This document shows, in pieces, positions 1-62,100 of a stretch of 64,000 nt of DNA. Position numbers and translations under genes: made by a program. Numbering within the stretch: the stretch's first letter is position 1; each line of letters opens with the position of its first letter. Origin of the DNA: Siphonodentalium dalli (Eukaryota > Mollusca > Scaphopoda > Gadilida > Siphonodentaliidae); the NCBI GenBank assembly GCA_032622095.1, contig CP136064.1:191629794-191693793 (forward strand), given 5' to 3'. Under the pieces are notes generated by a model. The model saw nothing but the letters and a program-made list of their open reading frames with translations, was not told where the DNA came from and searched no databases.

Positions 1-284
1 TATACATGTAGCTATATATTCGTATATTGACAAATGTACCTTTAAATAGACAAGGTAATCACTCGACGACATAAAACACGCTATTTTTCTTTCGGAGATA
101 GGTCGGTGTCCTAGTGAATGTTGTCAGTAGCTGTTTGCAAAAGAGGTGAAGATTAAATAATATAACTTTTCAATAGTTCAACGCCTGAACTAGAATTCGA
201 CACAATTTATGTTTGCGAAGATAAATCAGAAGAATTTCTTTGTAATGCATTATTGTTACCGAAGAATTAATATATATTTTTCAG

Positions 285-3200
285 ATATCAATAACATAGT
301 TAGCAACAGACACATTGCTCCTTCTCAGCCAACAATCCATCCTGTTAGCTCTCCACCATCCACAACCACAGAACCATCGGAAGATGACCACGTGACAATA
401 ACTTTAGACAACAAAGATTTATGGGATAGATTCAACACGATAGGGACGGAGATGATCGTGACCAAACCTGGAAGGTTCGCATTTAATTTCACATATTTTC
501 CATCACCGCAAAATAACGTATAATGGTGATAGTTTTAGCCTTTATCTTTTCGTCAATACGATGTGCTTCTGGTTCACGAATGGCTGGATACTAACAATTA
601 ACGTCGCTATTAGAAGGATCTCGTCTCCACCCATGGCATGAAACCTTTATCGAAGTTGGACTATTCCTGACCATACCTCACCTAGATCATGAATCCCGCC
701 GAACGCATGTGCTTATCCCACACACAATATTTCTGCCGAATTGTATATGTATATGTACCTATTATATTGTATATAATTTGCACCTGTAAATATCAAACAC
801 ACTGTCATGCTCTACGTGTACACTCTCTCCCACACGATGAGGCAATACAGAATATATATGTAGTACTGACACATGGTTGGCAAGAGAACGACTGGCAGAA
901 TTGATAATTGGGATGGAAAGCACACAGCTAACCCACCTAATACGCACATATTTGAATATTGCAAGCTACTTAATCGGGTATCACGATTAGATCACGATTG
1001 ATGTTCAATCGGGATGACCCCCCTACCGATTATATTATAATAATAAGCTATAATATGATATTTAATATCGATCATCGCGTGGCACGTCTTATTCAGATTG
1101 AATCCCATTATAATTTACTCAAATTTGTGTATTAATTGTGTCTAAATTATGTCTTTATATTTGACGACTTGAGTGAAATTAAGTCTATCTATCTATCTAT
1201 CTAACCATTTACCTAATCGTAAACCTCGATTAGATATTGTTTTATATACAATCCTTGGAGTATTGCCTTGCTAACTGTATGTCAAATTCTCCATTGACAT
1301 CCTTGGAATTTCTCTCTGTTAGAACAGATTAAACTTATGATCAGATGCCAGAATAGGGTATATCTACCGACAAGTATCATTGCTGAATAGCAACATAATT
1401 GATGATGAGATGGTATCCTAACATTTTGTAATTTTATAATTTCAGACGAATGTTCCCATTTATGAAAGTGAAATGCCAAAAGCTATCGCCGACCGCCAAA
1501 TATGTCGTCTTAGCTGACGTCATCCCATCTGACAACTGCAGATATAAATATCAGAACACCAGCTGGACTGTGACCGGAAAGGGCGAGCCACATACATCAA
1601 CCAGAATGTACGTTCACCCGGACTCCCCGGCTCCAGGGTCATTCTGGATGAAGAAACCTATATCATTCAACAAGATGAAGATAACCAACAACCCAAACGA
1701 CAAAAACGGCCATGTATGTTTACGGGAGCACTTCCCTTATATATTTCAGTTCTATTGTAATCAAAACAGAACATTGTAGATCATGATATCACGAAAAGGG
1801 AGTCATTTCTTGTATTTTTGTTTACGTTGTATATTGTGAGACAATACGACCAACAATAATTTTTGGAACAGGCAATACAAAATAACAGCATTGATCAGAG
1901 ACCCACTTAGTTATGTGAACTTGGAGAATGTTTCCAGTTCCTTGTCCGTCAGATCAGCCTACATATAGTATAGGCTCCAAGCGTAAATATATAAGTTTGT
2001 ATATCGATAACAAAGCCACCCGCTATGTCCATACGGAAGAACCTATACAGCTTATACTAACTGTAGTTTCTCGGAATGGTTTATTTGCAATATTGATTTG
2101 ATATGTCTCTGCATTATTATATCGTTCACATATCGACATGCACGTCATTCCGAAAACATGAAGTGTCTCAAAGACACTTCCAATCCTGCCAGTAATCGCA
2201 GTAGATATTTAGGTAATATACGTTTTTAAGATATGTCATAGATAATGTACCCTAATCACCATTCTTCTCATGCACAGATAATCCTGAACACCATGCAGAA
2301 ATACCAGCTGCGCGTCCACATCGTTAGAGCCAATGATACAAGTTCACTCAACTGGGGAAAGTTCAAGACGTCAAACTTTGAAGAAACAGACTTCATAGCG
2401 GTCACTGCTTACCAAAGCGAGGAGGTAAGCTTTCTTTAAATGACACAAACTCATTTGACACGACTGCAACTAGTTTTGCACTTATATTTTGCATCTCATA
2501 ATTTATAACAACGCCTCGACCAATTTCAACCGAAGTATTCATCGAGTGGTAAGCTCCATATACACATTCAGTATCCAAACACTTATAACACATGGATATT
2601 AACATTATGACCATGGTATGTTGCACACCAATGCACGCATAGCAATAACTTTTTGTCGATGGTTAGAATGGCTAGCATCATCTCAATAAGGTATGAATGA
2701 CTAGCATCATCTCAATAAGGTATAACATTGTAGCATGTTTAAACTCCAAATTGAATATTTCCAATCGTATTTATTGATCAGAGTTACTTCAGATATCTGA
2801 ACATAATATTGTCGATGCATAATAGTATGTAATGAAATGTATGAATTTATTTGTTTGTTTCCAGGTAACAAAGCTGAAAGTTGATACAAATCCATTCGCG
2901 AAGGGATTCAGGGACAATAGGAGGTAAGCTATAGTGTTCTATCTCACCTATACTATCATGCCTATAACATCTGATATATGGGTATATTATAACTCTTACA
3001 GAGTTTTGCAATACATAACTGAATCACAATCTGTGTGTGAATGTTTAATCAAAATGGACCAACTATTGATCGAATATTTGGATTTGGCCATACCATATAT
3101 ACGTAATATAAGTAACGCAATGATGAAACTGTTCGGTCGTAGAATTTTATTTTATTTTTTTAACCCCACACAAACACATGATTCCTTGTTGAGACTGGCG

Positions 3201-4644
3201 CTATCTATATTCAGGTTATTTTCTCTTCACAGGACCTGCTTTGGAGGAAAGCGACCTTCACTTGACACAGAAACCCAGTTCCTTCCAGGTAAGTTGACAA
3301 GTTGTAACCTAATGTCCATCTGCATATACATGCATTGAGTACCCCAGTATATGTGGTTAGTTTATAGTCTTTTCACTGAATATTTTATCGCCAACTTTAC
3401 CTATGTTTAAAAAATTTCCACTCGACATTTAGATCACTCTACATAGTTCAGCATGATTGCCAGTGGTTGCGGATGTCCTTGAATATTGAATATATCTTAT
3501 AAAATAGATTCAACCTATCCATAAAATTGATTATCGAAAATGGGAAAATAGACTAAAAACATGTTCCCAATGAACCTGTACAATTATAGTAAGATATTTG
3601 TTGTAGCAACCGATACCGATCATCAATTTAAAATGCATGGTGATTCACTCATAACATCAATTTCGATTTATTCTCATAGGAGTTTATCCCGAAGCGAAAC
3701 GTCAGAGAACCGAACCACGCGCAAAGATCTCATCTCCCGAACTGCATATTCTGACGGAACAAGACGAGATGTGCCCCAAATATGTCACCGACCACACCCA
3801 CAGTTTCAATACAGAGTCTCGCGCCGATGCTGTTGCCGGCTCTCCAGACTTGAGCGATCGCGCCATCAACCGTTCTCCCCCGTCGGTTGAAACCTACATC
3901 AATGAATACGCAGACAACACACCATCTCATCACAACCTTTCATCGTCTACAAACCCATCGCCATATACCAACTACGACTACAACAATGCAAATGATACGC
4001 CGTCGCCAGACAACGAATTCATCAACGCTCCAACAACCTCGTCGAATTGCAACCAGAACAGGACACCAGAAGTTTCCACGCCACATCAAAACCAACTGTA
4101 CGAACAACTTGTGGCTGGGTTCGGTATTCCAGCAACCAGCGTTTCATCAACCTCGACTTCAGACTTTTCAACCGCCAGTTATTCATCAAACTCAAAACTT
4201 GCGATTCCGATAAACACTCATACACCAATCTCAGTATCAACGACAACAGATGGCGAATATTCTTTCGACATGAAACCGACGATATTCAACTGCAGCGGGT
4301 ATCCATCAATGCCAAACGAGCACTTGTTTAGGGACCCACCAGCTTTGACAAGAAACGATTCGACCGACCACCATTTGGGTCTACCTTCACTCCCAACTCG
4401 CATTTCTAAGCTGACATCTACAGCTGAAATGCCACGACGACCCATCAACGGGAGACTCCTACCGACATCAACACCAACTGCTATTGACTTTCTGCAGAAC
4501 CAAGATTTCAACGGTAGCATGGGGCCATTCTATGCTGATTGCAAAGATTCGTATCTTCGTCCGACTTCTAGTGGTATGCTCGATCAGCTGCCTATATTCG
4601 CCCCATCATTCTACAGCCCCGATCCGAAAGTGAAGTCTAATTGA
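285..4644 (+). CDS. T-box transcription factor gene A (Tbx6/16-like), 5' end incomplete
   Basis: This is a DNA-binding transcription factor expected to act in the nucleus. Six exons join in frame by GT-AG introns: 285-474, 1446-1713, 2278-2424, 2865-2923, 3233-3288 and 3680-4644. Together they give about 560 residues. The T-box runs from LWDRFNTIGTEMIVTKPGR in the first of these exons, through RRMFPFMKV, the HPDSPAPGSFWMKKP block and [11 protein letters not shown], to NPFAKGFRDNRR. The last exon encodes a Ser/Thr/Pro/Asn-rich tail of about 320 residues with blocks shared with gene C (YEQLVAGFGI, AIDFLQNQD, LPIFAP). The first exon starts two bases into a codon, so an upstream exon is missing. 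A 28-bp ATG-led exon at 118-145 has the right phase but is weakly supported. The PAPG-FWM block and tail suggest the Tbx6/16 group rather than Brachyury or Tbx2/4/5; that subfamily call is inference. Confidence 0.9.
1184..1202. repeat. (CTAT)n microsatellite in the first visible intron of gene A
   Basis: About five tandem TATC/CTAT units lie within the 971-bp intron 475-1445. The rest of that intron shows nothing recognisable. The other gene A introns (1714-2277, 2425-2864, 2924-3232, 3289-3679) are AT-rich and partly alignable to pseudogene B. Confidence 0.85.
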
Positions 4645-7017: not shown

Positions 7018-8917
7018 AGCAATATCTATATTCTTATTTACATTAGCACATAAATATCACAAATGTGATGCATTAATAACCAATTAACAACACATCAAAC
7101 TAATGAATATGACCTACATATCAACGTGTCCAGTTAACAAACTAGTTGCCTGCTATAAGTGACGAACAGTATATTATTCAAGTTTACGAGGTATCAGAAA
7201 AACAAAATATTATTCAAAAGCACAAAATCAAGATGTTAAAGGACAATGCAACAAGTGTAAGTGTTAACTTCTATAACACGTATTAGATAATTATGTGAAA
7301 CAAAGGGAAGAGTTTACAACGAATATTAGTTGATCACGAGAAAACAATTACTGCTGTAAGTATGAAGGCATAGCACAAAAATGATATGAATATGAATAAA
7401 ATCCTTGCAAAAATAATTGTAACAATAGCACACAAAAATATGACGATGATAAGAGTTCAATTCACTTCAGACTTCACTTTCGGATCGGGGTTGTATAATG
7501 ATGGAGCGAATATCGGCAGATGATCGAGCATACCACTGGAAGTCGGACGATGATACGAATCTTTGTAATCGGTATAGAAGGGTCCCATGCAGCCGCTAGA
7601 ATCTTGGTTCTGCAGAAAGTCAATAGCGGTTGATGCTGTTGACGGTAGGAGTCTCCCGTTGAAGGAACGTCGAGTCATTTCAGTTGTAGACGTCAGCGAA
7701 GAAATGCGAGTTGGGAGTGAAGGTAGACCTAAATGGTGGTTAGTTGAATCATTTATTGTCAAAACTGGTGGGTCCCGAAACAAGGGCTAGTTTGGCATTG
7801 ATGGATACCCGGTGAAGTTGAACACCGTCGGTTTCACGTCAAAAGAATAGCCGCCATCTGGCGTCGTTGAAACTGAGGTTGGCGTATGAGTGGTTATCGG
7901 AAGAGCAAGGTTTGTGTTTGATGAATAACAGTTACTAGCTGTTGAAAAGTCGGGAGTCGAGGTTGTTTGAATGCCGAATCCAGCCACAAGTTGTTCGTAC
8001 AGTTTGTGTGGATGTGGGGTGGAAACTTCTGGCGTCCTGGTTTGGTTGCAATTCGACGAGGTTGTTGTGGTTGTAGCGTTGGTGAGTTCATTGTTAGGCA
8101 ACGGTGTGACAGCTGCATTGTTGTTGTCGTAGTTGCTGTATGGCGATGGGCTTTTAGACGATGATAGGTTGTGAGGAGATGGTGTGGTGCTGACGTATTC
8201 AGTAATGTAGGTTTCAACTGACTGAGGACACTGTGTAGGAACGGAAGTGAACGATGTATCGCGGTAATCGAACATAAATAAAAGTCGCTCGCATCAGCTT
8301 GACTACGGTACGTATATTTTCGTCTATCCCTCCAATTGTGTCAAAATCCCAGCCCGGATGCCAACCTGCCTCGATGAGGCGTATGTTTCGCTACATTTTC
8401 GTACTAATTTCGTTTCAGAACCGTGTCTAGTTCTCTCGTAAATCAAGTTTAAACCTCCTATTTTCGTGCTAAAAACACGTCACGTTTGCGATCAAAAGCA
8501 CATTTTTCAAACTATACCACGTCTTATTTTATAACAAAGACATGTTTTGGATGCCTTAATATCCCATTGAAAGCCACGCTTAGCGTTTCTCCCCCGTTTC
8601 ATGTGTTTTCCCGAAATACGAGCCCGATTTCAAAGCGTGGTGCTCCAACAGAATTGAACGCACGGTAATATTTGACAAAAAAACATTGAACGCACGGTAT
8701 TTTTTTTATTATTTGTATTGAACGCACGGTAAACATTCGATTACACCATGTAAAATGCCTTACACTTAAACATTTTTGTATATTGGAGTGAAAACTGAGT
8801 CGCTAGTATTAAAATAGATTATAGACCACCAATAACAAACACATATGGACATAATTGAACTCATATTACGGTCGTAATCTACAATCTTTGTTTCAACATA
8901 TAAAACTTTTAATTTAT

Positions 8918-9330
8918 CCCTCAAGCTGGTGCCAAAAATATGCTATAATAGGGTTTTATATGGAGTGGCAAGGTGTTTTGAACCGAAATACATATAATGT
9001 CCATGCATTAACATGGATGTGGTTGTACCCCCCCCCCCCCCAATTGATCAAATAATTTAGCCCTCAAGCTGGTACCAAAATATGCTATATTAGGGTTTTA
9101 TGTGGAGTGGCATGGGGTTCTGAACCGATATAAATAAAATGTCCATGCATGAACATGGATGTGGTTGTACCCCCCCCCCCCCCAATTGATAAAATAATTT
9201 AGCCCTCAAGCTGGTACCAAAATATGCTATATTAGGGTTTTATGTGGAGTGGCATGGGGTTCTGCACCGAAATAAATATAATGTCCATGTATGAACATGG
9301 ATGTGGTTGTACCCCCTCCCCCCATTGATC
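8918..9330 (+). repeat. ~142-bp tandem repeats in the left arm of the 3.6-kb element
   Basis: Three units begin CCCTCAAGCTGGT at 8918, 9061 and 9203. Each contains a small palindrome (CCATG...CATGG), the word ATGTGGTTGTAC and a poly(C) run of up to 14. Between 8640 and 8730 there are also three copies of TTGAACGCACGGTA. Confidence 0.8.
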
Positions 9331-9889
9331 AAATACTACTAATAGTTGGAAAATTTAACCCTCCAATTTAACAGCATGCAGTTGGAAAATTCAGACTTTA
9401 ACCAGGTAGAATCTTGATCTTTCTGGCTTGATTTTAGTCTAAATTTGCATTTTTTATTTAGCCTAGTTGAGAAATTCCAACTCAATGGTGAAACGGTAGT
9501 CGGGTATTTTAAAACTATAGATTAACTATATTTTATAATGTGTTAGAATTTGTCCAAAATACGACACAATGTATCTTGTTTTCGTGGAAATGCGTCACAT
9601 GATATGATGTTCTCGAAATAACACAATATAACACAGTATAAACTATATACTAGTATAGTTTTATGAAAGTAAAATATTACCATCGACCAAATATGGTGGG
9701 GTTCCAAGGTTACACTCGAGATAGCGAAACCGTCTATGTGCACACGCTGGTGGGTATACAATAATATCGACACATAATACGGGTCATCCTAAGTCCCACA
9801 TATGGGCGTATATTTAAAGAGCATTTTATGATTATAACAGTTCCATATACCGGTACTAGTATCATATAAATTATACTGCCTGGACTATT

Positions 9890-10138
9890 TTATGGAACAA
9901 TATTTTGAATCTTCCGCTGACATAAACCGGATCTGGTTTTGAATTGTTTTCCGCAATGGGAGCACATATGTATACATGTGGCAGCTTCATGGTGTGCCAC
10001 ACTGACATTTTCGTGTATTTTTGAATGTCTATGTAGGCTCGTTTTGTGTTTTGTTGTGAAGGAGCAGTTCGGTGACCGACACCAGAACTCCGGTGTCGCT
10101 GGGGCATCCGATCCAGATATGTCAAATGATTCGTCCAT
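9890..10138 (-). CDS. C2H2 zinc-finger exon inside the 3.6-kb transposon
   Basis: The ATG is immediately preceded by a strong splice acceptor (CTATATTTCAG). The 82-residue reading frame carries one classic C2H2 finger: C20-x4-C25-x12-H38-x3-H42. A second finger starts C59-x2-C62-GKQFKTRSGL but lacks its histidines before the frame ends. This suggests a finger interrupted by a splice donor, possibly the GTTTATG after the codons for KTRSG. It lies in the single-copy core between the inverted arms. It could be a host exon captured by the element or part of the element's own gene. The product is unknown and a complete gene is not visible. Confidence 0.55.
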   Translation of the reverse strand: MDESFDISGSDAPATPEFWCRSPNCSFTTKHKTSLHRHSKIHENVSVAHHEAATCIHMCSHCGKQFKTRSGLCQRKIQNIVP

Positions 10139-10744
10139 CTGAAATATAGAAATGGGCCGTATATAGAATCAGCGATATGTCGAAATGGGGTTCACGGTTC
10201 ACCAGAAGCACCGGAAAGCAAGGGGAAGGGCTACATCAAAGGGCACTTTACATGTATGTTATGGGCTACAGCCAATGTAATACACACGCGTCAGTTTAAT
10301 ATAAACGTATAACTTAACAACTCCCTGCAAATTCCTTCAATTGCACATGGATTTCATGCAGAATGGCGACAAAAAGGCAATCCGTGGTACCTCTCGCTCC
10401 CCTATAGACAGGGGTCACATCATGTTCCCTCTGCATACTCGCACCCGGTGTCGCTGGTCCTGTTTGATGGTATGACCCTCCTCATGAAATATAGGGAATA
10501 TCTTATTTTGGTGTATGTATTTGTGCTTTTTGGGTTCCATTTGCTCGACTATACTCAGCCCCAAAATACCCGACTACCGTTTCACCATTGAGTTGGAATT
10601 TTTCAACTAGGCTAAATAAAAAATGCAAATTTAGACTAAAATCAAGCCAGAAAGATCAAGATTCTAACTGGTTAAAGTATGAATTTTCCAACTGCATGCT
10701 GTTAAATTGGAGGGTTAAATTTTCCAACTATTAGTAGTATTTGA

Positions 10745-11157
10745 TCAATGGGGGGAGGGTACAACCACATCCATGTTCATACATGGACATTATATTTATT
10801 TCGGTGCAGAACCCCGTGCCACTCCACATAAAACCCTAATGTAGCATATTTGGTACCAGCTTGGGGGCTAAATTATTTGATCAATTGGGGGGGTGGGGGG
10901 TACAACCACATCCATGTTCATGCATGGACAGTATATTTATATCGGTTCAGAACCCCATGCCACTCCACATACAACCCTAATATAGCATATTTTGGTACCA
11001 GCTTGAGGGCTAAATTATTTGATCAATTGGGGGGGGGGGGGGGGGGGTACAACCACATCCATGTTAATGCATGGACATTATATGTATTTCGGTTAAAAAC
11101 ACTTTGCCACTCCATATAAAACCCTATTATAGCATATTTTTGGCACCAGCTTGAGGG
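10745..11157 (-). repeat. ~142-bp tandem repeats in the right arm of the 3.6-kb element
   Basis: This is the mirror image of the left-arm array. It has three units with poly(G) runs of up to 17 at 11031-11047 and the GTACAACCACATCCATGTT word. The G-run lengths differ from the left arm, as expected for slippage. Confidence 0.8.
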
Positions 11158-12003
11158 ATAAATTAAAAGTTTTATATGTTGAAACAAAGATTGTAGATTA
11201 CGACCGTAATATGAGTTCAATTATGTCCATATGTGTTTGTTATTGGTGGTCTATAATCTATTTTAATACTAGCGACTCAGTTTTCACTCCAATTTACAAA
11301 AATGTTTAAGTGTAAGGCATTTTACATGGTTTAATCGAATGTTTACCGTGCGTTCAATACAAATAATAAAAAAAATACCGTGCGTTCAATGTTTTTTTGT
11401 CAAATATTACCGTGCGTTCAATTCTGTTGGAGCACCACGCTTTGAAATCGGGCTCGTATTTCGGGAAAACACATGAAACGGGGGAGAAACGCTAAGCGTG
11501 GCTTTCAATGGGATATTAAGGCATCCAAAACATGTCTTTGTTATAAAATAAGACGTGGTATAGTTTGAAAAATGTGCTTTTGATCGCAAACGTGACGTGT
11601 TTTTAGCACGAAAATAGGAGGTTTAAACTTGATTTACGAGAGAACTAGACACGGTACTGAAACGAAATTAGTACGAAAATGTAGCGAAACATACCCCTCA
11701 TCGAGGCAGGTTGGCATCCGGGCTGGGATTTTGACACAATTGGAGGGAAAGACGAAAATATACGTACCGTAGTCAAGCTGAGGCGAGCGACTTTTATTTA
11801 TGTTCGATTACCGCGATACATCGTTCACTTCCGTTCCTACACAGTGGAGGAGAACGGTTGATGGCGAAATCGGTCAAGTCTGGGGAGCTGACAACAGCAT
11901 CGTCGCGAGAGTCTATACTGAAGCTGTGGGTATGGTCGCCGACGTATTTGGGGCACATCTCGCCTTCGTTCAGAATGTGCAGCTCGGGAGATGAGATCTG
12001 TGC

Positions 12004-12094
12004 AGGAGCGGAGGTCCATCTAAGTTTTAAGAACTTGTCCTCCAATCCCCTAGTATATGTATATGAATATACTATTAAAATATGTTTGAACCAA
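12004..12094. mobile_element. ~91-bp insertion with 8-bp flanking duplication in pseudogene B
   Basis: ATCTGTGC occurs at 11996-12003 and again at 12095-12102, bracketing 91 bp absent from the aligned exon of gene A. An 8-bp duplication would suit a hAT-type insertion. No terminal inverted repeats are evident, so a filler or duplication event is also possible. Confidence 0.5.
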
Positions 12095-14284
12095 ATCTGT
12101 GCACGTGGTTCGGTTCGCTGACGTTTCGATTCGGGGTAAACGCCTGTGTGAATAAATCGAATTTGATGTTATTACTATGTGAATTACCATGCATTCTAAT
12201 AATTATGATGATCAGTATCGGTTGCTACAACAAATATCTTTATACTTATGTTTGAGTCCATTTGCCCATTTACGTTCATCAATTTTAAAGATTTAAATCT
12301 ATTTTATAGGATATATTCAATGTAGTATTAAGGACAACCCCAAACATTATAGAATTACATGGAAATCAAGCTGAGCCATACGCCTGCAGCATGATCCATC
12401 TACATGTCAAGGGAATTTTTTTTAAATACAGATAAAGTTGGCGATAAAATATTCGGTAAAACGGCTATCACCTATACTATGGCACTTAATGCATGTAATA
12501 TGCAGACATATATGCGGTTACTAAGTCCCAACTTACCTGGAAGGGACTGGTTTTCTTTTTGAAGTGAAGGTCGCTTTCCCCAAAGTAGGTTCTGTGAAGA
12601 GAAAACAAAACCTTAATAGAGATGGGGCTAGTCTCAAGAACGAATCATTTGTTTGTGTGTGGTTAGAAATGCACTGAGAAATGCCACAACAAAAGAGTGT
12701 CATTATTGGGTTATTTCTCATGTGTACAATGTTTGGCCAAATCCAAATATTCCATCATAAGTCGGTCGATTTTGATTACACTCGCAAGCTTGTGCGTCGA
12801 ATTATGTTACTAGTAATTTTGTATAACTGCAGTTATGCTACCCAGATATAAAACGTTATAGGAGTGATTGTCGGCGAGATAATTCAGTGGCTTACCTCCT
12901 ATTTTCTTTGAATCCCTTCGCAAACTGATTGTTATCAACCTTCAGCTTGGTTACCTGAAACAAATTCATACAATGCATTACAAAATATTATACATCGAGA
13001 GTATTATGTTCAGATATATAAAGTAACTATGATACATAAATTCGATTGGAAAGTTGAAGTTTAAAACATGCTAGAAGTTATGTCCCATTGAGAAGATGCT
13101 ATATAGTTAAACCGTCGATAGTTATTTCCATGCACTCAGTGATGTGTTTCATATTGTTAATTCGCATTTGTTCTCGGTGTTTGGATACTGAATTTGCACA
13201 GCTTAGCACTTGAGACATACTTCGGCTGAACTTCGTCGACGTGATATTATGAAAATCTAAGATCTCGGTGCAAAACTATTTGTAGTCGTGTTAAATTCTA
13301 TTTTATTATTTAAATAAAACTTACTTTCTCGCTTTGGTAGGCAGTGACTGCTATGAAGTCTGTTTCTTCAAAGTTAGACGTCTTGAACTTTCCCCAGTTG
13401 AGTGAATTTGTGTCGTTGGCTCTAACGATGTGGACGAGCAGCTGGTATTTCTGCATTGTGTTCAGGATTATCTAAACAAGAGAAAAATGATTATTAAGAT
13501 ACGTTATCTATAACAATTATTACAAGCGTATATTACCTGGAAATCTACTACCGCCATTAGATTGTGTACATGTATATTTCATTACAACGCGAACAGACTC
13601 ATTTCTGGAACAATATTGAAACTAAACCTAGTCGGGTGGGCGGTTAGTGGAAGTGTCTTTGAGAAACATCATTTTACGGAATAACTTTCGTGTCTATATA
13701 TAGACGGACAAGGCAAAGAGATATTGGAAATAAACCATTCTGGGAAACTTTAGAGTTATTATGAGCCGTATAGGGTCTGTCGTACGGCAATAGTTGATGC
13801 CTTTGTGATCGATACAATGCTGCCAGTTAGCCTAATAGAATAATAGATCTACCCTTTGTACCAATATGTATAGATTGTCTCTGATATATGTTATTATTTT
13901 GGATTACGTGTTGAAACAATTATGCATGGTCGTATTGTCTCACATATGCCATATCAATTTACAAGTATTACGCCCTTTTCATGATATCACGACAGGCAAT
14001 GTTCCGCGAAAACATACATGGCCGTTTCTGTCGTTTGGTTGTTGGTTATCTTCATCTTGTTGAAGGTGATCGGTTTCTTCATCCAGAATGACCCCGGAGC
14101 CGGGGAGTCCGGGTGAACGTACATTCTGGCTGATGTATGTGGCTCGCCCTTTCCCGTCACAGTCCAGCTGGTGTTCTGATATTTATATCTGCAATTGTCG
14201 GCTGGTATGACGTCAGCTAAGACGAAATATTTGGCGGTCGGCGATAGCTTTTGGCTTTTCACTTTCATAAATGGGAACATTCGT

Positions 14285-15900: not shown

Positions 15901-17730
15901 TCATTGTTCATTCCCACTCAGGCTGAACTCATCATCTGATGAATCTATTAAAGGTAAGATTCTTCTTCTTTTTATAGTAGGAATACTATTAACTTCTGAT
16001 TGTGAAGATGCATTTGAATCATTTCCATGGTAAAAGTTGAAGGTGCAGCTTGTGATGTGAGTTGTTCCAGTGAAAACGGCTTCCATTTTATTCTTGGATT
16101 TGGCTACATTAGTTGTGCTCGTTGAGGCTGTTTGTTGACTTGGCATAACATTAACAGTCGGTTGACTCGGCATAAGAGTCGGTTGACTCAGAATAACAGT
16201 CGGTTGACTCGGCATAAGAGTCGGTTGACTCAGAATAACAGTCGGTTGACACGGAATAACACTTAGTTGGTTGTCAACATAACTGCTACTCGCTGGAAGT
16301 TGCGGAACACATCGTGCAGAATTTGGAACAACCGTGTTCCCTGTGGGAGCTCTTTTCATTAAAGAACCAGATATCACTTTCTGCTGTTGATCATTAAGCC
16401 GGCTGTAATTATTCGCACTACCCACATTTTTATGTCCGCTAATCTGTATCGTACAATTCGCTGGAAGTCCCATGTCATTGCATTTTTGCATTAAATGCTT
16501 TCGGACGCTGTGATTGGTGAGCCGTCTCGAACTGTCGATTTGATTGCAGTTTAGCCTCATTTTTTTCACTAAACCATAGATATGGTTGACACCCATCGGA
16601 CAATTCTTGAACCACAGAGCGTTCGGTTCCCCATCCCGAAGGTGGTTGATTCCCAAGAAAAATGGGGCGTCATTGTGATTCATTGTGTATGGGCGACGTT
16701 GCTTATATATCTTATAGGCTGCAACTGGACATTGAGATGCATCATCGTGATTGTTCCATGCACGTGGTTTAAACTTTCTGACATTAGTGGGATCAGCGCC
16801 TGTTCTTGTTTTTGTTTGTCTCTCTTTTTTGTGTTCCAGGTACTCATCTCCATCTTCGTCTCTGCTCAGAATAATATCACCCCATTTAAGCAACCACTGC
16901 TCCTTTCCGCCTCTCATTCCCAAAACCAGAGAAAATGTTAAATGTAAAAAATTAATAATTTGTCGCCCATTCTCGGTGCCAAGTTGACCACAATCAAATA
17001 GTTTCTGAATATCATCATCTGTCATCTCGTCGCTTTCCTGTGGCTTGTTACCATGTCCCAGTGACTTTAGTTGCTTCATTTTTGCTGAAACAGCTTTATT
17101 TGAATGTCCAAAGAGAGGATTTCTGTTCACACTGTGTTGGTATCCTTTGGATCTCAAATACCTTTCAAGGCTAGATAAAAATCCCCTAATGGTACCTGGC
17201 TCATAATCTTCCCCATTTGCTTTCTTAACAACAGCCAAAAAATTTCCAAACAGAAGATTCAGCTGGCCTGGTTCCATCTTTTCAGGGACATCAGTCACCC
17301 CCTGTTCTGAGCAGAATATCAGGAACAATCTCATGTCACTTTCTGTTTTTTTTCTTGTATTTGCATTTTCCTGATCATTAATAAAAGTGTCCACATAATT
17401 CTGGGAAATGTGTCCAAATCTACTGCCAGCTGCAGTCGCAGGTAATGGTATTGTGTCATTGTAATCAGTACTTTCAACTTGTGTTGGCTCTGACGGTAGG
17501 CTAGTAGACGTAGTATTCGTTGTAGAATTTGACGGCAGCGCTTGGATGTTTTCGAAACCCGATGCGTCCGTAAATATCAAATTCTGCATGATCTGGTCGC
17601 TCCGTGAAGAACTGCTTGATGCGATAGGTGAATCGGGTGGAGGTAGGTCGTCAAACTCCGATAAGATCATATATCTCGCTAATTCATCGCTGTCAGACAT
17701 TTTGTTTTGTTTATGAAACGCAGATGACAT
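15901..17730 (-). CDS. Crypton-type tyrosine recombinase (uninterrupted ORF)
   Basis: This intronless protein of up to 609 residues would cut and rejoin DNA to mobilise a Crypton element. The N-terminal 110 residues are low-complexity and acidic/Ser-rich. A SAM-like N-terminal DNA-binding region follows (about 112-230; FINDQENANTRKKT...). The catalytic domain (about 240-455) shows Arg273 in LGMRGG, candidate Lys301/302, His407-x2-Arg410 (NHSVRKH), His433 (SGHKN) and nucleophile candidate Tyr442 (NNYSRL), so the full tyrosine-recombinase set is present. The family resembles DUF3504/KIAA1958- and ZMYM-like proteins, which derive from Cryptons. The C-terminus has SQPT repeats. The start may be Met1 (17730) or Met11 (17700, MSDSDEL); the latter fits a typical acidic start better. 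No stop or frameshift interrupts it. It could be an active element or a domesticated gene. Confidence 0.85.
   Translation of the reverse strand: MSSAFHKQNKMSDSDELARYMILSEFDDLPPPDSPIASSSSSRSDQIMQNLIFTDASGFENIQALPSNSTTNTTSTSLPSEPTQVESTDYNDTIPLPATAAGSRFGHISQNYVDTFINDQENANTRKKTESDMRLFLIFCSEQGVTDVPEKMEPGQLNLLFGNFLAVVKKANGEDYEPGTIRGFLSSLERYLRSKGYQHSVNRNPLFGHSNKAVSAKMKQLKSLGHGNKPQESDEMTDDDIQKLFDCGQLGTENGRQIINFLHLTFSLVLGMRGGKEQWLLKWGDIILSRDEDGDEYLEHKKERQTKTRTGADPTNVRKFKPRAWNNHDDASQCPVAAYKIYKQRRPYTMNHNDAPFFLGINHLRDGEPNALWFKNCPMGVNHIYGLVKKMRLNCNQIDSSRRLTNHSVRKHLMQKCNDMGLPANCTIQISGHKNVGSANNYSRLNDQQQKVISGSLMKRAPTGNTVVPNSARCVPQLPASSSYVDNQLSVIPCQPTVILSQPTLMPSQPTVILSQPTLMPSQPTVNVMPSQQTASTSTTNVAKSKNKMEAVFTGTTHITSCTFNFYHGNDSNASSQSEVNSIPTIKRRRILPLIDSSDDEFSLSGNEQ
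16155..16250 (-). repeat. Minisatellite in the recombinase C-terminus
   Basis: Tandem units of CGGTTGACTC(A/G)G(A/C)ATAA(C/G)AGT encode alternating LMPSQPT/ILSQPT repeats, in frame and outside the catalytic domain. Confidence 0.8.
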
Positions 17731-20838: not shown

Positions 20839-22935
20839 TTACCATACATGGGTTTGTTCAAAACGCTCTGTTTTAGCTATAAAAGATTGAGTAATGCGGA
20901 AAAGAGTAGTGTTCTTTTGATTTGATATACCTTTTACCCCACATAAGAAATGATTTGCTTCTAATGATTGAAAGCCATTAATACATAAATTTCGGTAAAA
21001 GTAAATTCTCTGATCTACAAATAAAGGGCAAACATGAAAATAGTGATTGGCGTCTTCAATGTCTAAGTTACAGGGGCATATAGGCGAATCTGATATGTGA
21101 TTAACAAACATATCCGAACGGAGATCACTACACTGATTCCGAATTTTACAGTGTATTGTATTAATTTTCCTTTTTCCTGTATAAAAATAAGAGGGTGGTT
21201 TTATTATTGGGTCTATAATCCCTAAATTGGCTTTGAAATCGGAAATGGAGGTTGCATTGATTACATACACAGGTAATTTGTTCCATTCCAGAACAACAGA
21301 TGGGAGAAATGACTGTTTAAAATGCTCAGTATTAGTGAAATAGGAATAAAATTTATTTGGAAATCTAAGATTATAATCCGATCGTTCTCTGGAGCGTGCC
21401 GGTAGGAGATATGTCAGATACAAAGGGGCGTCTTCGTTGATAATTCTGTAAATTGCTTGCAAATGGCGATGTTGCCTACGCCTGTGTAGTGTCCGCCAAC
21501 CTACCTCAAGCCATAACTTGTTAAGTGATACTGAACGATTTAGGCCGGTTACGATTCTAGCGGCGTCTTTATGTATTCGGTCGAGTTTTTCCAGTAAGTA
21601 ATCGGGTGCTGAATCCCATACGACGTCAGCATAATCCAAAATAGGAAGGATATACGCATTGTAAAATATTTCGAGTGTCTTTCTATCGAGATCGTTTTTT
21701 AATTTCCTCAATTGTGATAGTCTAGAAGCAGCTTTGTTTGCTGTGTATTCTATTTGTTTGTTCCATTTTAAATTTGATTGAAATTCAAAGCCAAGGTGCT
21801 TATGCGATTCGTTAAATGAAATAGTTTCGTCCTGGAATAATAAATCTGGGGAATTATCTTGAGGCACGAATGAGAAGGATATTGCCTTGGTTTTCTTGGG
21901 ATTGAACGAAACTAACCAGTTGTCTGCCCATAGACTGACCCTTTTGAGGTCCTCGTTTAGTTCCGATTGTAGGATGTTAAGATTGAAGTGAGAAGCTGTG
22001 AGACATGTGCCATCAGCATACATTCTAAAAGTTGATGTGAGGTTATCTGGTATGTCATTAAGGTATATTAAAAATAGGAAAGGCCCAAGGATCTATCCAA
22101 GAGGCCCAAGGATCTATCCTTGGGGAACACCCGCTGTGATGGTTTCAAAATCAGAATAAGTGTTATTGATTCGGACCCTTTGCTTCCTGTTAGTGAGATA
22201 GTCCTCCAGCCATTTAGAAAGCGACCCTGTTATCCCATACGCGTTAGTTTTGGCAATCAACCCTCTGTGCCAGAATCTCTAAAAGGCTTTAGAGATATCA
22301 CAAAATACTGAACAAGTGTATAAGCCTTTGTCGAGTGTCTGACACAGCTGGTGATAAAGATCAATCAATTGGAATGTAGTGCTGCGTTTCGGAACGAAAC
22401 CCGACTCATTTTCAAATAGGAGTTTATTCTCATCAAAGGACGAGATTCTCTTTAGAACCAACTTTTCAAGAATTTTACCCAGGCATGGTCGAAGGGAAAT
22501 TGGTCGGTAATTAGCGCTATCTGCGGAATCTCCATTTTTAAAGATAGGAATCACATTGGCTTTCTTCCACTGTGATGGGAACTTTCCCGTTTGTAGAGAT
22601 TTTTTAAAAATTAAGAAAAGAGGGTGGGCGTTAGCCGTGCCGTGGAGCATTTTTTGACTAACTCCGTCATAGCCATAGGCTTTGTTGGTTTTAAGTGATC
22701 TGATCGCAGATATGACATGGACTGAAAATTTAAGTTCTGATAATTCTTTATTGCATCGTGAACTGAAATCAGGTAGTTTGTGATCTTTCTGGTCAATCGT
22801 GGAATTTGAGAGGATTTTTTTATTCAGGCACTCGGCTTTTCCCAAATCGTTTGAGACAAAAAGTACATCATTGACTTTAATATCTCCATCCGTAGAATAA
22901 ATAGGTGGTATTGTTGTTATCTTCTTTTTGTTCAA
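20839..22935 (-). pseudogene. Reverse transcriptase ORF, catalytically dead
   Basis: This is the RT domain of the LINE. Recognisable blocks in order are KANVIPIFKNGDS, NYRPISLRPCLGKILEKL, GFVPKRST, SVFCDISKAF, GVPQG, ILGP, FLIYLNDIP and MYADGT. The catalytic YADD is YADG, and the Asp expected after CDISKAF is replaced by a TAG stop (about 22280). A second lesion at about 22085-22115 is a ~21-bp tandem duplication of the QG-ILGPL region that creates two TAG stops. Downstream, a C-terminal C-x-C...H...C segment (SPICPCNLDIEDANHYFHVC) is present. It ends at 20839. Confidence 0.88.
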
Positions 22936-29926: not shown

Positions 29927-29930
29927 TTAA

Positions 29931-30440
29931 CGATACGGGCGGCGTTGGCGGTGGGTATGCTGTTAAAATATTCAACTCCGTCAAAAACCGCCATAAACAG
30001 AACGAATAGTAAAATATAGACACTTTGTTCTTATACAATCAGAAATATGTCATAAACAGTATGTTATTGCCAAATGTTTTTCCATTGTTATGTAAAGGAA
30101 AGCAAAAAATGTTACGAAACCTGGCATTTGTTTAGATCCGGATATGGTACACATAAAGAGCGTTATTTGTTACTGTTTTCCAGATATGGAAATAATAAAG
30201 AGCGTTTATATCATTTGTGTGTGATTAACCAATAGAATTGCTGTGTTATGTAAACAGAAGCCAAACTTCTGCAACACGAGAAGGTTCTTGTTTACGTACA
30301 CCATCGTACGTATTGATGACAATATACTATTTTTAAGCGCCGATTATGTTATGAACAAAACTATATATTTTTAATATTCCTTCAGTTGATGGCGATTTGA
30401 ACAAATATGAATATTTCTGCAACGAATGCCGCCCGTGCCT
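29931..30440 (+). mobile_element. TTAA-flanked 510-bp MITE, family A copy 1
   Basis: TTAA at 29927-29930 and 30441-30444 flanks inverted ends CGATACGGGCGGCG and GCCGCCCGTGCCT. The inside contains TAAAGAGCGTT and AACACGAGAAGGTTCTTGTT, shared with the inverted copy at 54973-55492. There is no coding capacity, so it would be mobilised in trans. Confidence 0.88.
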
Positions 30441-54972: not shown

Positions 54973-55492
54973 AGGCACGGGCGGCGTTCGTTGCAGAAAT
55001 ATTAATATTTGTTCAAATCGCCATCAACGGAAGGAATATTAAAATATATATAGTTTTGTTCATATGCCAAAAATAATCAGCGCGTAAATAGTATATTGTC
55101 GTAAAGACATACGATGTTGTACGTAAACAAGAACCTTCTCGTGTTACAGAAATGTTGCTTCTGTTTACATAACACAGCGCAATTCTAGTGGTTAATCACA
55201 CACAAATGATATAAACGCTCTTTATTACTTCCATATCAGGAAAACAGTAACAAATAACGCTCTTTGTGTTTACCATATCCGGATCTAAACAAAAGCCAGG
55301 TTCTGTAACGTTTTTTGCTTTTGTTTACACAACAAAGGAAAAACATTTGACAATTACATACTGTTTATGGGATATTTCTGATAGGTATTAGAACAAGGTA
55401 TGTCTATACTTTACTATTCTTTCTGTTTATGGCGGTTTTTGACGCAGCTGAATATTTTAACAGTATACCCACCGCCAACGCCGCCCGTATCT
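54973..55492 (-). mobile_element. TTAA MITE family A, copy 3
   Basis: A full-length inverted copy of 29931-30440. The ends are AGGCACGGGCGGCG and CGCCGCCCGTATCT. TTAA is present at 55493-55496, and TTCA (one change) at 54969-54972. Confidence 0.85.
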
Positions 55493-55669
55493 TTAAGTTG
55501 CTTAAAGATGAAAAAAATTGTTGAAGAGCCTGAAGGAGCGTCGTTTTTCGTGCTGCATTTTCAAACATACCACTGCTTTTAAACATCTGCATTGTGTTTA
55601 ATACACATTTAGTTGGGGTCTGTTCAACTTTGAAAATTACTATGGCCTCCTGGGCCCACATGGGTACAA

Positions 55670-56215: not shown

Positions 56216-56359
56216 GTATTGTCTGAACCCTAAATGTGACATACCTTTTTGATGCGACTTAGAAATAACACATAAGGTCCCTTTTAGAAGGCATCAATCA
56301 ATCATTAGGCATTTGATCAATAAATTCATCACCCACTATTTTATGGTGTCAACCCTTTA

Positions 56360-56650
56360 TTCCGAAGGTCCGATACTCAGAATGTCCAATACTCCGAAGA
56401 TCCCATATTACGAACCTACAATACTCCGAAGGTCCCATATTACGAAAGTCCGATACACTGAAGATTCTATATTCCGAAGACACGATACTCCGAAGATACG
56501 ATACACCGAAGGTCCGATACTCCGAAGATCCAATACTCCGAAAGTCCGATACTCGAAGATATAATATTCCGAAGGTCTGACACTACGAAGACCTGTCCGC
56601 TACTCCGAATACCCGATACTCCGAAGGTCAGATACTCCGAAGGTCAGATT
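56360..56650 (+). repeat. ~18-bp minisatellite
   Basis: About 16 degenerate units of CGATACTCCGAAGGTC (variants ATTACGAA, GAAGATC). Boundaries are approximate. Confidence 0.85.
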
Positions 56651-56654
56651 ATTA

Positions 56655-58940
56655 TAAGGGCTGTCAATTGATATGCTTATGTAAATTTAATTATTTTAAA
56701 GCCTCTATACCATTATATTCAACGATGTAAGCATTCAGTGACGATGCGGCTGGAATTCGAAGAAGCCCCAGTCCCAACTATATTCACATTCAGGAAATAA
56801 TAGAAAACTAATAAATGTATATGCTCATTTGTGAAATATTTATATATTTAAAGAAGACTCCGACTCCCATGGCGCCTCACAACTATGTTGCTTCTCTCTC
56901 TTCTCCCATTCTCTATTTCTCTTCCTCGCCCTCTTTCCACATCTCATAGCCATCTCGGCCAAACATATAGGCGGAAAAAAAAAATTGTCGAGTTTGAAAA
57001 AGATGGTCGAAAAGTGGTCCAAACTCAGCTCGGATCGAAAAATATTGGGATTTGGAGGAAATAATTCCGGGATTATCCTCGGTGATGTGGGATGAAAAAT
57101 TTGGCCGAACAGTTTGCGAGTCTAAACAGGGGGGAGGGTCGAAAAAAGTGACATGACAGTAGGCTGAAAAACTTTTTTCCGGCTCTTGTGTACCCACCAC
57201 CACCCTATTTGAAGGAAAACATATTTTTTTCCAATTTCATCCGGGGTACCCACCCGCTTTTTACCTCCAAATATGTAGTCTCACACCATTTAATCTTGAT
57301 GGTCAGTATTACAGTTACCCTATTTCCGTTTCTGGTTCTTCTAAGTCATTCCAACTTTTGTAATAACACGAAACAGGAAGTGATCTAAAAAAAAACCTGG
57401 CAGTTAACTCTCCAACAATACAGGTATTCAGCTGAAATCCACCATGTATCACAAAACTAATTTTCATTTCCATGAGCTGAGTTCTTGTGCTAGGTACTGT
57501 GCTAAGGCCAGACCCAGGTCAAGCATTCAGACACATACATGTACGTGTAAATAGAAACTTGAAAATAAGACGGTCATATGCAGTCTGCGTATCATTTGGG
57601 CAGTCATTATAGAATAAAGTACACGAACCAAGCTTGCCCATACCAAATATTGGATATCGAGAAGAACCGCATGAAAAAATCAATGAAACAATAATTTCAG
57701 TCTGAGAACAGATAAGAATCGTATAAAGCTGCACCCAGTGTTGTGCAGTTTGTTTTTGTAGACTAATTGATTCATGACAGTATTGACTTGTAAACAAGTT
57801 ATATGAACATTTTACCAAATGTCCACTGATATTCAGTAATCACCTGAAAACTGTATCAAAATAATAAAATATCAATTTTGGCAAAACATTTATGCCAGAT
57901 GGTCAGCTTTTAACAGATTTATCAGCATCCATATGGCTTTGATGTGAAATTTAATTTTGTGTCCATAAACAAACAATAAATACAACTAAATAAAACAAAC
58001 AAAAATTAAACACTGGATGTTGCTTTAAATAGGATTCAATAATTTCTAGCATGATGAGATTTCCATGTTTTTGCCTCTAATTATGTCTGTCTGATCAGGT
58101 ATAATGAGTAAATATTAATGATATAAATCAATAGCTTTTTTCATTTTATTTACATTAAAGTTTATTCATGTGCTAAAAAACTGTCCATTTTCATCTGGAA
58201 CCAGTAGCATTGTTACATGGCAATGTGATCGGATGTAAAAGGCGAATTCCTGAGAGTTGGTTCGTAATCTGGATTTCTGAGAAGCATCGTGCCTATATGT
58301 ACACTAACTACCCACCTCAGCACTGCCCTAAGTGTCATATACATCTTAACAATGATGCTGAACACTTTGAGGCAATTATATAGCAGAAATGTTGTAAGAG
58401 GAAAAATTGTGACCACTTGGAAAAAAGTTACTTTTTTCGCGGCTGAACCACCCACCCACCCCGGCCTACTGTATGGAAACAAGTGAATGACCCCCCCCCC
58501 CCCCCCCCCCCGGTCTAAACGGAAAATACTGGTCGAAAATAGGGAAAGTCGGGAAATCGGCGGGAAATGACCATCATCATCAGAATAATTCATATCCATC
58601 TCGGCCCAATATTTTGTGCCTGAAAAACTTGGGTCGAGTGAAAAAACTTTCGTATCGGGAGTATATCGACAAACTAGAGATCGTTTCAGACACGAAAAAT
58701 GATTTTAAATATGGGCTTTTTAGCTCCATTCTAGCCATCAAAATAACAATTTATCGCCACCAAAGTCGCGTATCAGACTTTTAATTGAATACGGACTATC
58801 ATTAAAGAAGGGGTATGCGTCCTGGAAGATTGACAGTGGGGTATGAATCATGCGTACCGCCTGAAAATCACATGAATCCCGCGTATTAGGGGAGAAACCC
58901 TCAAAAGGATTGTGTTGATTAATGAAATTCTTGATCGAAA
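56655..58940. other. Gene-poor region 3' of gene C
   Basis: No supported exon. It contains a ~21-bp poly(C) run at about 58491-58511 and CT-rich sequence at 56890-56940. Confidence 0.4.
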
Positions 58941-59181: not shown

Positions 59182-62100
59182 CTAGAAATCAATAGCAGGT
59201 TTCATTTTCAGATCAGTGCTGTAGAATGGAGGGGCAAAGATCGGTAGATGATCAAACAGTCCACTGGGATTCTGGCGGAGATAAGGATTTGTGTAGTCAA
59301 CAGAGAATGGTCCCAGGCTGCAGTTGGAGTCTTGATTCTGTAGAAAGTCGATAGCGCTGGGTGTTGGGAGCAAGTTTATGTCGAATGCGCCCGGTTTTGG
59401 CATCTTGGGTGGCGATAAGACATCACTCGAGGCAGCCTGCAGGTTTGTCGACTTGCTCTTTGTTGACAGATTCAGTGGATCGCATATGAAGGGCTGGTTT
59501 TGTGTTGGCGAAGACCCCATGAAGTTGAACACCGTTGGCTTAAAGTCAAAGGAATTCGTATTGTCTACTGCTCTCGGAATACCCTGGGGTGATGCTAATG
59601 AAGATATCGATGGAATGCCGAATCCAGCCACAAGTTGTTCATACAGTTGGTTCTGATGTGGTGTGGACACTTCTAGCTGCCTGATTTGGTTGCGATGCGA
59701 CACGGTTGTTGTTGGAGCGATGAGTAATTCTTTGCTAGGTGACGATCTTTCAGATACACTGTTGTAGTTGTAGTTGGTGTATGTCAATGAGTCAGTAGAC
59801 GGTGCTACGTTGCGAGGAGATGGTGTCTCTCCAGCGTATTCACTCGCGTATGTTTCAATGGACGAAGGCGAGTGGTTGGTGGAGAAATCGCTCGAATCTG
59901 GGGAGCAAACAGCAGCATCGGCACGAGACTCTGTCGTGAAGCTGTGAGTGTGGTTAGTGACGTATTTTGGGCACATCTCGTCTTGATCTTTCAGAATCCG
60001 CAGTTCTGGTGATGAGACCTGTGGTTCAATTCGCTGACGCTTTGCTTCCGGATAAACTCCTGCAAGTAGAAATGTTGTCATTTTATGTGTGTCAGTTAGA
60101 TTTACATGTTTGTATGTGGTGCACAAAATGGTTTCAATCACTGAGAAAGTTAAGAAACACACAGTGGATTTAAACAAAATAGAAATCAAAACATATTGCT
60201 CTCTTTCTAACAGACAAACCTTTCGAAATTGTTTCTAAGTTGTGCAGAATAATTTCATTTGGTGAGAGCAAATTGATACCGTGTTAATGCTGGAATGTTA
60301 CGTGATAAATATTGATTTCTTAAATTCTAATCAAGTTGAGAGCTATTAATACATTGGTATTTTTATATTGTATCCTCGAATTGATTTGGTATTTACATGT
60401 ATGTCTATTTTATAATGTTAAGCAAATCGTTGTGTTATTGAAACTGAAACACTTGTAATATGTTTGTAAAATTAACAAACATGGTGTAACGATATTGCGA
60501 ATCTATATAATTTGATAACATCTCAATTACCTGGAAGGAACTGGTTTTCTGTGTCATCAAGTGATGGTCGCTTTCCTCCGAAGCATGTCCTGTGAAGAAA
60601 GAGAAAACGATTAAATGTCATATTTGCCCGATATGGCGGTCTTGGACGAACTAATATATCCTGCCTCCATCTGCGTGCATATTATTATGATGTTATGGTT
60701 ACCAAGCAAGAGTCCAACTCTCTCGTCGTTTTCAAACTTACTCAACTCATCATAATTGGGAAACATATTAAACTTCATTTTTTTTTATTACATAAACATA
60801 CGATGCTTTCTATTACAGAGTTAATAAAAATACTTTGGTAAATCATACCCACTGTATCTCCTCCCATGGAGTTATTTCAGACTTACCTTCTGTTATCTCT
60901 GAAGCCCTTTGCGAACGGATTATTGTCAACCTTCAACTTGGTACACTGAAAAGAATAGATGAATAGCACGATTAACACAAAATCTGGTTAAGCAAAGCAC
61001 TGTATAACGTCAAATAGTTTCGGAGATACTGAAGCTTGGCTTGCTATTTACTTCAAATAAAGATTTTGTTTTAATTTAGATATAAACAAATACTGACAGT
61101 CTTTAACCTGTACTTGTGAAATACTTTCTAATTCAACTTTCAAGTGACTTTGTGTTTTAACCACCGATGATAAAATCTTCTGAAGTACCAGTTTTATAAC
61201 ACGTCAGTAGGTGAACATGACTTTATGTTAAAGGAAGCTGATAAAAGTTCTTACCTCTTCACTTTGATAGGCAGTAACCGCTATGAACTTTGTCTCGTCG
61301 AAGCTAGATGTCTTGAACTTTCCCCAGTTGAGTGAACTTGTGTCGTTGGCTCTGACGATGTGGACACGCAGCTGGTATTTCTGCATCGTGTTCAGAATGA
61401 TCTTTGAACACAAAAACAAAATAGTTAGAATATGATGGTAAGTTTAGGGAAACTAGTACATGGTTCATAATATGTATGCGCAACGGTGTATGTATGACAC
61501 ATTATGAGCACCCCCGTCTGTATATATTGAAATGGCCCGTATGTGTTAAAATTAAATCCTGTTTGGTGATTGGTCAACTGCCAATTGGGTCACCCGGTTT
61601 ACATTAATTCGAAGAGTGTACCACGAACATGAAGTTACAAACTGTTGATCTAGTCTGGACTAATCACTAAACGCGGTCGGCAGAATAATTGGGCGTGCCG
61701 AGTTGCAATTGATGCCAGTTATTTATATCGATCGATCACGTTATCGTAGCTAAGAGTGTGGAAATTTTACATTGGGTTGACTTAATGAACTGTATCGACA
61801 GATTTCGTAAAAATAAATAAGACTACATTCAGTTTTGTATGGGAATAAATCATCAAAAAGCGATATAAATATAAAAAATTATTGTAGTGGGTTTATGCGT
61901 TACTGGGGGATACGGCGGCTATGTGGTCATTAGGGCACATTAAGCTTCGCGGTTTATACAATTTTCCCAACGACCACAGCGCCGTATCCCACAATAACAC
62001 ACACACCCACCACATTAATTTCTTACGTATACTGCGCAACAACAAGATGTTAATGCAGCCACTTTAGAAACACCTCGCAAATCTTGATTTATACCACGAT

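Follow-up and report, generated by a model that had tools for sequence, protein, structure and literature searches.

A leading CAC and target-site duplications of 5 bp are reported as features that Transib, RAGL and RAG have in common when they transpose (PMC7204232, PMC8289069). The literature consulted supports a CAC start and, for ProtoRAG, CACTATG. Transib belongs with EnSpm, Mirage, Chapaev and their kin to the CMCT group, in which the ends are mostly CA..TG and the duplications are 2–5 bp (PMC12730594). Hztransib is described as having ‘long TIRs’ together with a 5-bp duplication (PMC1852546), and two papers describe Transib as being without the RAG1 N-terminal region (PMC7204232, PMC8355894). 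Non-autonomous RAGL elements are known, often with duplications (PMC7204232), and RAGL genes are given as not found in tunicates or jawless vertebrates (PMC8355894). Most foldback elements have been assigned to Mutator (PMC4079207). The element described below lies in a 64-kb window (the whole stretch of DNA that was analysed).

The window carries three copies of a T-box gene: copy 1 (plus strand, approximately 279–4641), copy 2 (minus strand, approximately 14320–7460) and copy 3 (minus strand, approximately 63540–59185). When the exons of copy 1 were joined by hand the product matched the Pfam T-box model with E 4.8e-75, and the best PDB match was TBX3 (a best match and not a phylogeny). The first T-box exon gave only short matches in the window outside copies 1 and 3 (best E 0.011). 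Two of the three copies form an inverted duplication with their tails facing each other, and one copy is damaged. It is the tail exon of copy 2 that the element interrupts, the paralogous tail exons being at 3655–4641 (plus strand) in copy 1 and approximately 59185–60100 (minus strand) in copy 3. Read directly from the sequence, the element is an insertion of 3,618 bp at 8229–11846 (Table 1), and both the CACTGTG...CACAGTG ends and the exact GAGGA duplication given in the initial annotation are present, so that the earlier observation of a transposon insertion with these ends is confirmed as real.

Table 1. Features of the element and of the T-box exon that it interrupts (window coordinates)
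Feature	Position	Strand	Basis
Interrupted tail exon, 3' part, stop at 7787–7789	7460–8228	−	Frame list and paralogue alignment
Target-site duplication GAGGA, left copy	8224–8228		Sequence read
Terminus CACTGTG, heptamer-like, reads inward	8229–8235	+	Sequence read and end comparison
Left inverted arm, approximately 1,281 bp, starts CACTGTGTAGGAACGG	8229–9509	+	Arm alignment, repeat search
Triplet of ATTGAACGCACGGTA units set 32 bp apart, candidate binding repeats	8653–8737	+	Repeat search; putative function
142-bp tandem array, approximately three copies, poly-C tracts	8910–9335	+	Tandem repeat search
Core between arms, approximately 1,054 bp	9510–10563		Arm alignment
82-aa frame, ATG right after splice-acceptor-like TTTCTATATTTCAG, two C2H2-like fingers, second incomplete	9890–10138	−	Frame search, Pfam, PDB; weak database scores
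Right inverted arm, approximately 1,283 bp, terminates in CCTACACAGTG	10564–11846	−	Arm alignment
141/142-bp tandem array, right arm	10750–11165	−	Tandem repeat search
Three TACCGTGCGTTCAAT units, 32-bp spacing	11338–11422	−	Repeat search
Terminus CACAGTG, heptamer-like, outward reading (CACTGTG inward)	11840–11846	+	Sequence read and end comparison
Target-site duplication GAGGA, right copy	11847–11851		Sequence read
Interrupted tail exon, 5' part, end approximate, holds 99-bp insert	11852–12143	−	Paralogue alignment, BLAST

The GAGGA match stops at five bases, as the 6-base flanks differ (TGAGGA versus GAGGAG), and, as the inverted repeat sets the boundary, the base composition gives a chance of about 0.0013 for a 5-base flank match. 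Three of the five positions in this single duplication are G or C, too small a sample for the GC bias that the initial annotation expects of Transib and RAG-like duplications. With the element and one GAGGA left out of copy 2, the tail exons of copies 1 and 3 align gap-free through the insertion site, at which they carry GGGGA and AAGGC respectively, each once. Since these two uninterrupted paralogous exons show no gap at the site, a duplication of 5 bp is directly supported. A scan of the 64-kb window for inverted pairs that could not be extended, lay no more than 8 kb from each other and were flanked by a repeat of 2–10 bp gave 62 pairs; among the best 40 of the 62, seen longest repeat first, the flanking repeat was at least 4 bp in three, these being the element itself and two pairs inside its arms around the palindrome GGTACC. 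A separate scan of the window for 5-bp repeats with CAC ends returned the element as its sole match. No further copies of the element were found in the 64-kb window with a 16-base end (up to three mismatches), in the inverted-pair scans or by BLAST at E 0.01. The absence of BLAST similarity between the element and the rest of the window, the fact that the flanking duplication abuts the inverted repeat exactly on both sides, and the uninterrupted paralogous exons all argue against there being no transposon here but an inverted segmental duplication or an assembly artefact, a reading that we consider very improbable even though other inverted duplications exist in the window and long inverted arms may be assembled wrongly.

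The main anatomy of this transposon, absent from the initial annotation, is its foldback form. The arms, of 1,281 and 1,283 bases, make up a long inverted repeat of about 1.28 kb; their alignment of 1,286 columns contains 19 mismatches and 8 gap columns, and the first 60 bp are identical between the two ends. Each arm contains a triplet of ATTGAACGCACGGTA units set 32 bp apart and a tandem array in which a 142-bp unit, itself containing poly-C tracts, is repeated about three times, so that the element has the foldback architecture of long inverted arms containing internal tandem repeats. Galileo and Tetris foldback elements likewise have long inverted arms, partly with tandem repeats, and occur as transposase-free copies (PMC3573991, PMC4079207), but their duplications are 7 bp and 8–10 bp as against 5 bp here; the TIRs of TransibSU-1_PM are 13 bp long, against the kilobase arms of this element. 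Enrichment of short k-mers in the outer 250, 420 and 520 bp of the arm was not significant, and the 161 nt that span the triple repeat folded no better than their shuffles (168 of 200 shuffles were at least as good). The 19-base end had no matches in a prokaryote genome collection and no DNA match was found in phages. Viral contigs gave one match to the 17-base end and 15 to the 15-base inner repeat; when these 16 loci were compared with the element by BLAST the matches were short (best E 0.012 among the matches listed), and in the three of the 16 loci that were inspected (L014, L002 and L016) the match lay inside listed frames, of which two are long (578 and 419 aa). We read all 16 as chance.

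The exon was said in the initial annotation to be restored when the element is removed. A frame is indeed open across the junction once the element and one GAGGA are taken out of copy 2, but this copy carries other disabling lesions: near 14037 its T-box exon is one base short of the length found in copies 1 and 3, which causes a frame shift; copies 1 and 3 read through the position of its stop at 7787–7789; and for copy 2 the first exon is represented by nothing beyond the short matches given above. As copy 2 is disabled elsewhere, the restoration is true locally only. The tail exon of copy 2 also holds a 99-bp insert, with the 8-bp sequence ATCTGTGC as a direct repeat on either side (11996–12003 and 12095–12102); inverted ends were not seen by eye in this stretch (11996–12102), which is perhaps a second, smaller insertion. 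Of 1,278 positions compared between the arms of the element, 19 differ (1.5%). Between copies 1 and 2 the divergence is 14% for the tail exon (123 of 871 positions) and 7% for each of two T-box exons (19 of 264 and 11 of 155). If the arms started identical and have stayed unconverted, the insertion would be younger than the gene duplication. The ends of the element (8229–8250 and 11825–11846) contain GT and AG when read on the strand of the T-box gene; two of nine GT/AG choices near the ends would keep the frame if the element were spliced out, and one choice would remove it without net change of length, a curious property although splicing of the element is hypothetical and copy 2 is damaged in other places.

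Several other features were seen in the window. On the minus strand a 609-aa uninterrupted frame (15901–17730) matches DUF3504 (E 2.8e-13) and, weakly, a phage integrase (E 0.0011, below cut-off); HSVR, GHKN and a later Tyr, picked out by eye, suggest a Crypton-type tyrosine recombinase that is possibly intact, and the comparison of this frame with PDB gave no weighty match. Also on the minus strand, two frames at 20839–22935 resemble a broken non-LTR retrotransposon, one of them matching RVT_1 (E 8.3e-10) and the other having no Pfam match. A dispersed repeat is present as two inverted copies 25 kb apart (29927–30332 and 55086–55496) that are approximately 90–94% alike in three blocks, and a tandem array of 16-bp period occupies 56332–56665.

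The initial annotation gives CACWRTG as the start of Transib and RAG-like transposons, and the CACTGTG of the element fits this motif at seven of seven positions; the annotation was also right that the inward-reading CACTGTG differs from the V(D)J heptamer CACAGTG at position 4 only. CACWRTG occurs 40 times on the two strands of the window (0.0003 per position per strand), the ends of the element included. Position 4 of the heptamer is described as the least discriminating, and CACTGTG with several spacers is among the heptamers most used by mammalian RAG, while with other spacers it also appears in low-efficiency lists (PMC9723617); the spacer at the ends of the element begins with TA, which was not among the spacers considered from PMC9723617. 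The proposed kinship with Transib/RAG held in part: the 5-bp target duplication (in one copy) and the heptamer-type terminal CAC at both ends agree with it, but a nonamer at RSS spacings, an A-rich block adjoining the heptamer and a transposase were not found. At the RSS spacings of 11–13 and 22–24 the best nonamer match was 3/9, equalled in 94% of 20,000 shuffles. The best match in the outer 100 bp was 6/9, at spacings of 36 and 42, and we know of no nonamer spacing that includes these. We take the A-rich or nonamer-like block to be variable in Transib and not strictly defining. At a spacing of 20–22 bp, cited for symmetric Transib ends (PMC8355894), there were 0–1 matches in nine; in this, and in having no transposase, the element is unlike Transib (e.g. 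Hztransib), with which it shares the 5-bp duplication and termini akin to the RSS heptamer (PMC1852546, PMC4411706). With RAGL/ProtoRAG and their non-autonomous derivatives it shares the first CAC and the 5-bp duplication (PMC7204232, PMC8289069), but positions 8–10 are TAG and not the AAA of protostome RAGL ends, RAG1L and RAG2L are absent from the element, and the protostome RAGL end consensus is matched at 8 of 17 positions. The ends are symmetric and do not show the 12/23 asymmetry of the RAG RSS pair; this distinguishes them from RAGL/ProtoRAG, though some RAGL are also symmetric and, according to PMC8355894, asymmetry is not required in all RAGL or Transib.

The main named rival to Transib/RAG is hAT5, the element then being a non-autonomous member of this group of hAT elements. 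The hAT end rule is YARNG, with which C at position 1, A at position 2 and G at position 5 agree, but CACTG has C as its third base, where this general hAT rule asks for A or G. Like this element hAT5 duplicates 5 bp (PMC12730594); on balance we regard membership of hAT5 as improbable.

No long transposase frame is present in the core, where the longest stop-to-stop frame is 106 aa, in agreement with the earlier claim that a transposase is absent. Pfam searches revealed no DDE transposase among 10 of the 91 window frames of at least 85 aa and a few other frames, and Rfam gave no match at gathering score in the whole 64-kb window. The finger frame of the core starts MDESFDISG... and contains C-x4-C-x12-H-x3-H followed by CSHCGKQFKTRSGL, where the second finger breaks off. 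Its matches to C2H2 models in Pfam (E 0.008–0.013) are below the curated cut-offs and were nearly equalled in the same scan by unrelated families (DUF3984, 0.025; RNA_pol_Rpb2_4, 0.028). PDB matches were also weak, the best among those listed (E 0.083) being a zinc-finger protein; the 25 listed were mostly zinc-finger proteins by name and RAG1 was absent from them. No relative of the frame was found in viral contigs, and a single-sequence AlphaFold model was poor (mean pLDDT 54.1). Among 3,000 sequences generated from a Markov model of the core, the first finger motif occurred in 1.5%, the second in none and both in none, the patterns having been chosen post hoc. The frame may be a remnant of a 5' coding exon, either from a parent element or transposase or from a captured host gene. 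As Transib is without the RAG1 N-terminal region the core fingers do not fit Transib, and to our knowledge they do not fit hAT either. These weak C2H2-like fingers favour a different origin for the foldback element, either in another lineage with CAC ends (EnSpm/CACTA, Chapaev) or in an undescribed superfamily making 5-bp duplications. EnSpm/CACTA elements also show CAC..GTG ends, but their duplications are 2 or 3 bp (PMC12730594, PMC6004678) rather than 5 bp, and we judge this explanation as a whole to be unlikely.

The established features of the locus (ends, arms, 5-bp duplication, uninterrupted paralogous sites and a core that has no long transposase frame) are, in our view, probably best explained by a non-autonomous foldback DNA transposon mobilised in trans by a Transib/RAG1-type DDE transposase. 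Such an enzyme, its superfamily being suggested by the ends and the duplication, would recognise the two identical ends through the CAC heptamer and perhaps also inner sites, for example the putative binding sites GAACG at 11 and 21 bp. It would cleave beside CAC, presumably leaving hairpins on the flanks, and the excised element would then be inserted across a 5-bp stagger, repair of which would give GAGGA on either side. The two-finger frame of the core could be left over from a 5' coding exon, belonging either to the parent element or to a captured host gene. A fuller version of this proposal, in which a RAG/Transib-type enzyme moves a foldback family with kilobase arms, matched heptamer ends, no nonamer and a zinc-finger remnant, possibly descended from a parent with an unusual C2H2-finger transposase, is put forward only tentatively and is doubtful; if it held, RAG-type transposases would be able to mobilise foldback elements whose ends are symmetric and carry no nonamer.

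In the open-licence PMC literature we found no paper that names Transib together with CACTGTG and none that names a C2H2 zinc finger together with the transposase families, and among the open-licence PMC matches listed none names both ‘foldback transposon’ and ‘Transib’; one review (PMC9659126) mentions both ‘foldback’ and ‘Transib’. As far as these limited searches go, the element differs from the described foldback and Transib systems, and the foldback form may arise from several lineages. If the enzyme is of Transib/RAG type, the superfamily from which V(D)J recombination arose would include a foldback branch, represented by this element, whose long symmetric ends would offer a natural way to test what the enzyme needs beyond the CAC and the heptamer. 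If it is not, this would be another unclassified animal foldback element, and a warning that seven terminal bases are a poor ground for assigning a superfamily.
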